Positions 1,933 through 6,386 of a stretch of 64,000 bases of DNA are shown one piece after another. The notes under the pieces are model-generated. The model worked only from the letters and a program-made list of their open reading frames with translations, was not told the origin of the DNA and ran no database searches. The translations under genes and the position numbers were made by a program. Source of the stretch: Alphaproteobacteria bacterium (GTDB lineage Bacteria; Pseudomonadota; Alphaproteobacteria; GCA-2746255); NCBI GenBank assembly GCA_021296325.1, contig JAGWAR010000002.1:1-64000 (forward strand). Direction: 5' to 3'. Numbering within the stretch: position 1 is the first letter of the stretch; each line of letters starts with the position of its first letter.

Positions 1933-2463
1933 CTAAAGGTCCTTCGGCGCGACGAAACGGACCAGCCGGCCAACCCCCGGCACGACGTCACCCCACCGTT
2001 TGCTTTCGAAACATAATTCCGTGAGGCCCGCGGTCGGGTATTTCCCTTTCAGGCGCCGTAGCGCCTTCGGTTTCGCGTCGGCCCCCGGCAGGCGCAGCGC
2101 CAGGCGGGCGATGCCCGGGTTGTGACCGATCACGAGCACGCAGCCGACCGCGTCCGGCGTACGATGCAGCACATCGAGGATGCGGCTTGGCGAGGCCAGG
2201 TAAAGGCTGCGCAGTTGCTTTGCCGGGATGGAATCGGCGCCGGCGCCGGCCAGCGCCACCCGCGCCAGCGTCCAGGTTTCGACCGCTCGCGCCGCCGCCG
2301 AACAGAGCACCAGCTCCGGCACCAGCCCGCTGGCGCGAAGAAAGGCCCCCATCTTCGGGGCCGCGTCGCGCCCACGCGCGTTCAGCGGGCGGTCGAAATC
2401 GTCGAGCACGCTGCCCGTCTGGTCCGATTTCGCATGGCGTAACAGCAGCAGCGTCTTTGTCAT
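1933..2463 (-). CDS. sixA: SixA-like histidine phosphatase family protein
   Basis: [17 protein letters not shown] (RHA catalytic motif), ...[10 protein letters not shown] (second His). Confidence 0.85.
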
Positions 2464-2586: not shown

Positions 2587-2604
2587 CTGTCACAGAACCG
2601 TAAC
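2587..2604 (+). promoter_or_regulatory. Putative Pho box upstream of ppk
   Basis: CTGTCAC-AGAA-CCGTAAC: two 7-mers on an 11-bp period, followed by an extended -10-like TGCTAGGAT (2625-2633). Confidence 0.55.
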
Positions 2605-2697
2605 AGATCGGGTCCGCCGACCCATGCTAGGATTTTGCGATCCGCGTCGGAAAAGGACGACGGAACCCCAGAAACGCAAAAAACGACGGAAAAAGGC

Positions 2698-4875
2698 GTG
2701 GAGGAAGCGAGCAAACCAACGGCGTTGCAGCCGGAAACGGCGTCTTCCGAGGAAAGGGCGGAGGCAACGCCTTCCGGCGATCGCTATATCAACCGCGAAC
2801 TTTCCTGGCTCGCCTTCAACGAGCGCGTCCTGGAAGAGGCATACAACGCCGCGCACCCCCTGCTGGAGCGGTTGCGCTTTCTTTCCATTTCCTCAAGCAA
2901 CCTCGACGAGTTCTACATGGTGCGCGTCGCCGGCCTGAAGGGGCAGGTCCAGGCCCAGGTGACGACGCCAAGCCCGGAAGGCCTGACGCCGGCCCAGCAG
3001 CTTGCCGCCATCAACGAGCGGGTCGCCAGCCTGATGGCGCGCCAGCAGGCCTGTTGGCGCGAACTGCGCGACACCATGGAGGAAAACGGGGTCGAAGTCC
3101 TGCAGACGAGCGAGCTGACGGACGCCGAGCGGCAGTGGCTTAGCCGTTACTTCTTCGACGAAATCTTCCCGGTCCTGACGCCGGTCGCGATTGACCCGGC
3201 GCACCCCTTTCCCTTCATTCCGAATTTCGGCTTTGCCATGGTGCTGGAGCTTTACCGCAGCTCGGACGGCGAAAGCCTCGACAGCCTGCTGCCGCTGCCG
3301 AACCAGCTTGGCCGCTTCATCCGGCTGCCTGGTTCCGGCGTCCGCTTCATCCGGCTGGAGCAGGTCGTGCGCATGCATCTGGCTCGCGTCTTTCCCGGCT
3401 TCGAAGTCCGCCATTACGGTTTCTTCCGGGTCCTGCGCGACAGCGACCTCGAAATCGAGGAAGAAGCGGAAGATCTGGTACGGGAGTTCGAATCCGCCCT
3501 CAAGCGGCGGCGGCGCGGATCGGTGATCCGGCTGACCGTGAACGCCGACATGGATCAGGGTTTGAGGGATTTCGTCATTCGCGAGCTTCGGGTTTCGGAC
3601 GAAGACGTCTTCTCGCTGAACGGCCTGCTCGGGCTTTGCACGATTTCGGAACTGATCGTCGACGACCGGCCAGACCTGCTGTTTCCGCCTTTCACCGCGC
3701 GCTTTCCCGAACGCATCCGCGATCATGGCGGCGACTGCTTCGCGGCGATCCAAGCCAAGGACATCGTCGTTCATCACCCGTATGAAAGCTTCGACGTCGT
3801 CGTGCAGTTCCTGCGCCAGGCGGCGCGCGACCCCGCCGTGGTGGCAATCAAGCAGACGCTTTACCGCACCAGCGACAATTCGCCGATCGTGGCGGCGCTG
3901 ACCGAGGCGGCGGAAGCCGGCAAGACGGTGACGGCCCTGGTCGAACTGAAGGCGCGCTTCGACGAGGAACGCAACATCCGCTGGGCCCGCGATCTGGAAC
4001 GCGCCGGCGTGCAGGTCGTCTATGGCTTCATCCGATTGAAGACCCACGCCAAGGTTTCGCTGGTGGTCCGGCGCGAAGGCACGGAGTTGCGCTCCTATTG
4101 CCATTTCGGCACCGGCAATTACCACCCGGTGACGGCGAAGATATACACCGATCTTTCCTTCTTTACCTGCGACGCAGCACTTTGCCGCGACGCGGCGCGG
4201 CTGTTCAACTACATGACAGGCTATGCGCGGCCGGAACGGATGGAGAAGGTCGCCGCCTCGCCGTTGAACCTGCGCGAAACCCTGCTTGAGCTAATCGAGG
4301 CGGAGGCGGGCCGCGCCGAGGCGGGCGAGCCCGCCGCCATCTGGGCCAAGCTCAACTCGCTGGTCGACCCGGTCATCATCGACGCGCTGTACCGCGCCTC
4401 CAGCGCCGGGGTCCGGATCGAACTCGTCATCCGCGGCATCTGCTGCCTGCGCGCCCAGGTACCGGGCCTTTCCGACCATATTCACGTCAAGAGCATCGTC
4501 GGCCGCTTCCTCGAGCACAGCCGGATCGTCTGTTTCGGCAACGGCCACGACCTGCCTTCCCCGCAGGCGAAGGTCTTTATTTCCTCGGCCGACTGGATGC
4601 CGAGGAATCTGGATCGCCGGGTCGAAACCCTGGTCCCCATCGAGAACCCGACGGTGCATCAGCAGATTCTCGACCAGATCATGACCGCCTGTTTGAAAGA
4701 CGAGTCCCAAAGCTGGTATCTTGAGCCGGACGGTAACTATCGCCGCGCACGGGTCGGTCCAAAGGCTTTTAGTGCCCACCTTTACTTCATGACCAACCCC
4801 AGCCTTTCGGGACGCGGCTCGGCGCTTAGAAAGAACATGGCCCGACATCCACGCCTCGTGCGTAAAGACGATTGA
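2698..4875 (+). CDS. ppk1: Polyphosphate kinase 1
   Basis: [71 protein letters not shown]. Start uncertain: ORF is open from 2533; GTG 2698 preferred because a Pho box and -10-like element lie at 2587-2633. Confidence 0.9.
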
Positions 4876-6386
4876 GCTTCACAAAGGTGCGCCGTAGCGT
4901 GGCCCCGCGGGCAAGGTCAGCCCTGGGCCGGGTCGCGGTGATTGATATTGGCTCGAACTCGATCCGCTTGGTGGTCTTCGACGGCCTGAAGCGAGCCTTC
5001 CTTCCGCTGTTCAACGAAAAGGCCATGTGCGGCCTGGGCCTCGGGCTGCGGTCCAGCGGGCAGCTGTCAGAGGAAGGGATGGCGTCGGCGCATGCCAATC
5101 TGGCGCGGTTCGTCGCCATGGCCGGGGCGATGGAGGTGAGCGAGCTGCACATGGTGGCGACGGCGGCCGTGCGCGAAGCGGCGAACGGCCCGGATTTCGT
5201 GGCGGAGGTCGAGCGGCGCTGCGGCCATCCCGTCCGGGTGCTGAGCGGCGCGGAAGAGGCGCATCTGGCCGCCCACGGGGTGTTGGCCGGCCTGCCCGGC
5301 GCCGACGGGATGATGGGCGACCTGGGCGGCGGTAGCCTGGAACTCGTCGCCCTTGACGGCGGCGAACCGGGGGCGTCGGCGACGCTCAACCTGGGGCCGC
5401 TCAACCTGATGGACGTCGCCAAGAACGGGCCGAAGCAGGCGCTCGAGACGATCGAAAGCGCGCTCGACAAGGTGACCTGGCTCGACGCCGTCAAGGGCCG
5501 CGACTTCTACGCGGTCGGCGGCGGCTGGCGCAACCTGGCGCGGCTTCACATGGAGCAGACCGGATACCCGCTGCACGTGTTGCACAACTACATCCTGCCG
5601 AGGGACGAGGCCGAAGCCTTTGCCCGCCTCGTCGCCGGCCTTGGCAAGCGTTCGATCGCCCAGATCCAGGGCATCTCGCGCCGCCGCGCCAAGACCCTGC
5701 CCTACGCCGCCCTGCTGCTGGACTCGCTCCTGCGCCGGGCCCGCCCGGCGCGCCTGGTGGTGTCGGCTTACGGCCTGCGCGAAGGCCTGATCTTCGACCG
5801 CCTGCCGGCCCGCCTGCGCCGCCGTGATCCCCTGATCGAGGGCACCGCCGAACTGGCGACGGTGCATGGGCGTTTCGGCGATCTGGGCGAGGCCCTGGCC
5901 AGCTGGACCGACCCGCTGTTTCCCGACGAGGCGGCAAGCCTGCGCCGGCTGCGCCTGGCGGCCTGTCACCTGTCCGACCTGGCCTGGCGCGAGCACCCGG
6001 ACTACCGGGCCGATCAAGCCCTGCAGCGGATCCTGCACTACCCGTTCATGGCGGTGGACCATCCCGGCCGCGCCTTCCTCGCCGTCACCGTCTCGATGCG
6101 TTACGGCGGCAACACGCTGGCGCCATCCATCGACCCGGCGCTGGCCCTGTTGCCGGATGACGAGATGCGCCGCGCCCGGATCACCGGCCTGGCGCTTCGG
6201 CTAGCCTATACGCTGTCGGCCGGTGTGCGTTCGATCCTGGACAAGACGTCGCTGGAATACCGGGACGGGCGGCTGTGCCTCGAGCTGCCCAACAACGGTT
6301 CGATCCCTTCCGGCGAAACGGTCGAGAACCGCCTCCAGGCCATGGTCGAGGCCCTGGAGGCCAAGAGCGGCAGCATCCTTACCTGA
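4872..6386 (+). CDS. ppx: Exopolyphosphatase (Ppx/GppA family)
   Basis: [32 protein letters not shown] start overlapping the ppk TGA (TTGA). Confidence 0.9.

Follow-up and report, generated by a model that had tools for sequence, protein, structure and literature searches.

The Pho boxes of E. coli and of Alphaproteobacteria consist of two CTGTCAT-like direct repeats of 7 bp, which are separated by a 4-bp spacer, recur with an 11-bp period and are followed by a -10 element without a -35. Both Pho boxes and Pho-controlled ppk genes are already known. According to one review, ppk induction is Pho-dependent and serves phosphate storage (PMC4415409). For Alphaproteobacteria, the published accounts of ppk diverge. 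For Sinorhizobium meliloti, ppk is given as a member of the Pho regulon, with reference to Krol & Becker and Yuan et al. (PMC3596328). In Caulobacter, ppk1 is induced by phosphate starvation, but its induction was reported to be PhoB-independent and to respond to cytoplasmic phosphate (PMC11208175).

We analyzed a ppk locus in a window of 64 kb (the whole stretch of DNA under study). A Pho box of the same architecture as those of E. coli and Alphaproteobacteria precedes ppk and, like the other boxes of this genome, is GC-shifted at the second bases and the ends of its repeats (CCGTAAC). Unlike in this type, the second repeat and the candidate -10 are 23 nt apart and not ~10 nt. From these sequence features, we consider it very probable that positions 2587-2608 are the PhoB operator of the ppk-ppx operon, which would bring the operon under phosphate-starvation control. 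The locus would thus be a further instance of Pho-controlled ppk, possibly with an unusual spacing. As in S. meliloti, an alphaproteobacterial ppk would be under PhoB; the S. meliloti assignment draws on expression data and a box prediction, whereas that of the present ppk draws on sequence. Caulobacter ppk1, also alphaproteobacterial, differs by its reported PhoB independence.

A Pho box faces ppk in the sixA-ppk gap

The original prediction described a double 7-mer with an 11-bp period upstream of ppk and suggested scoring it with a PhoB matrix. The letters are as described: CTGTCAC (2587-2593) is followed by agaa (2594-2597), and CCGTAAC (2598-2604) by agat (2605-2608). The box is located in the gap of 234 bp that separates GTG 2698 of ppk from a divergent sixA-like gene starting at 2463 on the minus strand (Table 1).

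pstS is the canonical PhoB target. We took the 260 bp in front of pstS from other Alphaproteobacteria, leaving this genome out, and trained a PhoB matrix on them; the resulting 26 sites give the motif CTGTCATaaaaCTGTCATataa. The 22-bp ppk site scores 21.96 bits with this matrix, equal in strength to the genome's own pstS box (22.1 bits), and ranks first of the 128,000 positions and strands in the window, where the runner-up reaches 11.5. When compared to a first-order Markov null, none of 2,000,000 positions reached the score of the ppk site (null maximum 14.0). The reverse strand at the box scores 9.6, from the same bases.

A stricter, leave-genus-out matrix was limited to the 18-bp core, with congeners excluded, the two weakest sites dropped and a background of 65.4% GC. 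Here too, no site in the window outscored the ppk box, which reached 17.75 against 14.2 for the runner-up (p = 5e-7 per position). About 1.6 such sites are expected across the genome and ~0.06 across the window, compared to ~2e-4 for the sixA-ppk gap; the site is convincing because of its place and orientation, not because of its score alone. A pattern search of the 1.63 Mb assembly returned only four perfect CYGTMAYNNNNCYGTMAY matches, the ppk box included. The other three fall in 11-bp tandem arrays, two of them overlapping in the array on contig C4 and one in the array on contig C27. The Pho-box-like repeat described at 2587-2608 is confirmed.

Table 1. Features of the ppk locus and tandem Pho arrays elsewhere in the genome
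Feature	Coordinates	Strand	Evidence and remarks
sixA-like histidine phosphatase gene	1933..2463	-	His_Phos_1 above cut-off, TIGR00249 below; divergent from ppk
Pho box, two 11-bp units (CTGTCAC-agaa + CCGTAAC-agat)	2587..2608	+	Directed towards ppk; PWM and consensus match
Probable extended -10, TGC-TAGGAT (TGCTAGGAT)	2625..2633 (hexamer 2628-2633)	+	Sequence; predicted TSS ~2640
ppk, polyphosphate kinase 1	2698..4875	+	NF003919, 1236 bits (cut-off 908); start GTG 2698 preferred
ppx-type exopolyphosphatase gene	4872..6386	+	TIGR03706, 309 bits (cut-off 307); overlaps ppk end
Pho array, five 11-bp units	G000 C4:87482-87532 (L093 3983-4033)		Ends 10 nt before TAGGGT, followed by a 49-codon ORF
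Pho array, four units	G000 C27:67667-67706 (L094 3668-3707)		Precedes a Porin_4 gene truncated at the contig end

The genome encodes PhoB and further candidate Pho targets

The genes phoR-pstS-pstC-pstA-pstB-phoU-phoB are complete on contig 15 of the same genome. PhoB passes the curated cut-off of TIGR02154 (342.5 bits against 296.2), and PhoR, at 316 bits, falls slightly short of its cut-off of 334. This PhoB shares 82-87% identity with the PhoB proteins of three congeners, and its C-terminal stretch YVELRTVDVHIRRLR closely resembles the recognition region known from E. coli PhoB. The pstS box, GCGTCATaaatCCGTAATagaa, is located ~100 bp upstream of pstS and has the same two-unit motif, which is also found upstream of pstS in most relatives.

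The 49-codon ORF that follows the C4 array (MTALISHFVNEGGG...) has no Pfam match and no relative in the 58 other genomes searched; it may encode a small Pho-induced protein. The Porin_4 gene behind the C27 array is a candidate phosphate-starvation porin. We also observe a further two-unit candidate ~280 bp upstream of the C27 array, before a small lipoprotein-like ORF. Another candidate box, CCGTCACaagaCCTTCAT (17.1 bits; G000 C22:21793-21810, L101 2294), is found ~80 bp upstream of an apparent acyl-CoA carboxylase beta subunit gene. It has no -10 at the usual distance and is possibly a chance match.

Pho boxes recur upstream of ppk in about one third of loci

Comparison with the ppk upstream regions of relatives, also suggested in the original prediction, gave a divided answer. 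Using the trained matrix, a threshold of 12 bits, and strand and permuted controls, we scanned 300 bp upstream of 108 other ppk genes. On the forward strand 33 of the 108 regions exceeded 12 bits. The reverse strand gave 6 such regions, ppk coding sequence 1, and column-permuted matrices 1.1 on average (maximum 5). Forward boxes before ppk are thus significantly enriched but patchy; boxes recur, and about two thirds of the relatives have none. A strict consensus count in the ppk upstream regions of 29 relatives had indicated non-conservation, but this count was too strict, given the enrichment seen with the matrix and its controls.

A divergent sixA next to ppk-ppx is a common arrangement: a sixA gene diverges within 500 bp of ppk in 43 loci studied, the present one included, and 15 of these 43, again including the present one, have a box. 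Mapping the box onto the ppk tree takes 23 changes, compared to 27.7 with shuffled labels, indicating that it has been gained and lost freely.

Two of the three congeners have no ppk match. The ppk of the third (G001) is 68% identical, but it and the window's ppk do not form a sister pair in the tree, so it does not provide a clean test of the closest orthologue. Upstream of it, ACGTAACcgatTTGCCAT is a weak candidate box that scores 8.4 bits with the full matrix and 6.0 (p 3e-4) under the stricter matrix; TATTTT follows after exactly 10 nt. Among the four genomes examined from the same order (G000-G003), only two have ppk, and their copies do not group together as sisters; this distribution points to transfer or differential loss.

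Spacing between the Pho box and the candidate -10

A -10 had been predicted to follow the box. TGC-TAGGAT is indeed there and is probably an extended -10, judging by the TG one base upstream of TAGGAT and a GC-TAGG string common to the promoter of the C4 array. A search of 2400-2800 for a sigma-70 two-hexamer promoter with a -35 found none. The distance is at odds with the usual one. From the end of the box to TAGGAT there are 23 nt, while in the genome's pst, C4 and C27 boxes a TA follows 10 nt after the box end. Among relatives, offsets of 10 nt (8/25 pstS and 15/33 ppk regions) and 21 nt (9/25 pstS regions) are the commonest for the TA. The ppk spacing is therefore 13 nt longer than the main class and 2 nt longer than the 21-nt class, and the locus departs from the canonical Pho promoter, in which the box replaces the -35 and ends ~10 nt before the -10. 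This spacing weakens the claim of a standard Pho promoter but is not a defining feature for a PhoB binding site.

Neither offset 10 (CGCCGA) nor offset 21 (GCTAGG) has a -10-like hexamer. TAGGAT is the best -10 candidate nearby, yet it is the weakest link of the model. In 9 of the 33 other ppk regions a TA is found at offset 23, although 6 of these come from two near-copy groups. A search of these 23 nt for a further, third Pho unit found none that would be usable (best unit score -2.7).

The unusually long gap from box to -10 is filled by an inverted repeat, GGGTC-CGCC-GACCC (2610-2623), which we set aside as likely chance because its arms are 5 bp in GC-rich DNA. Two approximate repeats within 2464-2760 were also judged to be chance, and a terminator-like stem on the minus strand (2570-2556) is weak and at chance level.

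Operon structure and start codon of ppk

ppx is probably co-transcribed with ppk, which it closely follows in 86 of 102 related loci. In-frame start candidates for ppk are ATG 2533, TTG 2635, GTG 2698 and TTG 2725. The original prediction called the start at 2533 annotated and discarded it on the grounds of a TSS near 2640. We saw no annotation for this start, which is a mechanical limit of the ORF, and its rejection holds without recourse to the TSS. GC by codon position in 2533-2697 is 0.56/0.62/0.58, without codon periodicity, compared to 0.66/0.42/0.81 in the ppk core and 0.72/0.51/0.81 in sixA. Because its codon-position GC is unlike that of ppk and sixA, this segment is very unlikely to be coding, and translation is unlikely to start at 2533.

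GTG 2698, the start originally predicted, remains the best candidate and is preferred here; GGAAAAAGG is located just upstream of it. TTG 2725 is also possible. The conserved NRExSW is preceded by 31 residues from GTG 2698 and by 22 from TTG 2725, and both are inside the range of the nearest starts in relatives (1-52 residues).

Proposed mechanism and alternatives

The sequence shows the site, the regulator and the arrangement of the operon. We propose that, when phosphate is low, the Pst/PhoU/PhoR complex would phosphorylate PhoB, and two PhoB protomers would occupy the two 11-bp units in a head-to-tail arrangement. Bound PhoB would then recruit RNA polymerase to a promoter with the TAGGAT -10 and without a recognizable -35. 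Transcription would begin at ~2640 and translation at GTG 2698. The phosphate-starvation control of ppk-ppx foreseen in the original prediction is supported by the matrix score and by the recurrence of boxes; the role of PhoB is deduced from sequence, and Caulobacter provides a counter-example.

PhoB may bind the box and yet serve a promoter other than TAGGAT 2628, either by acting from a distance or through another -10. The excess of 13 nt over the main spacing class, and of 2 nt over the 21-nt class, would be explained in this way, but we consider it rather unlikely, since offsets 10 and 21 offer nothing -10-like and no good candidate other than TGC-TAGGAT is present nearby. A TA at 23 is likewise seen in some ppk promoters of Thalassospira and Rhodobiaceae, although these promoters are near-copies and those of Rhodobiaceae carry a further TA at 12. 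The box could also be involved with the divergent sixA, instead of ppk or in addition to it, given that it is located within their shared gap. Pho boxes are directional, however, and the reverse-strand score of only 9.6 comes from the same bases, making a role for sixA very unlikely.

Other explanations would leave PhoB with little or no part in the regulation of ppk. If ppk induction by low cytoplasmic phosphate took a different route, as it does in Caulobacter, where ppk1 is upregulated by starvation but reported outside the PhoB regulon (PMC11208175), then the box would be a relic or of minor importance. A relic should have decayed, but this box matches the genome's own pstS box in strength, and we regard such a route as improbable. 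That the box is a chance match is barely credible. The stricter matrix does expect such a site in a genome of this size, and most relatives have no box upstream of ppk. However, the expectation for the gap itself is minute, place and orientation are both right, and the only other perfect matches in the genome sit in tandem Pho arrays.

Control by PhoB through the box at 2587-2608 therefore remains our preferred reading. A more far-reaching version is that PhoB control of ppk has been repeatedly gained and lost in Alphaproteobacteria, and that PhoB here acts as an activator from a position (23 nt) roughly one helical turn farther upstream, with the extended -10 replacing the usual -35 overlap. 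Taken as a whole, we hold this version only as a speculative and not very likely one.

The patchiness of the ppk-PhoB wiring across the class fits the contrasting reports from S. meliloti and Caulobacter. The pst operon and ppk-ppx, together with a porin and a small protein, provide a first sketch of the Pho regulon of the lineage. If the box functions as proposed from its sequence, polyphosphate synthesis in this alphaproteobacterial lineage would be placed under phosphate-starvation control.
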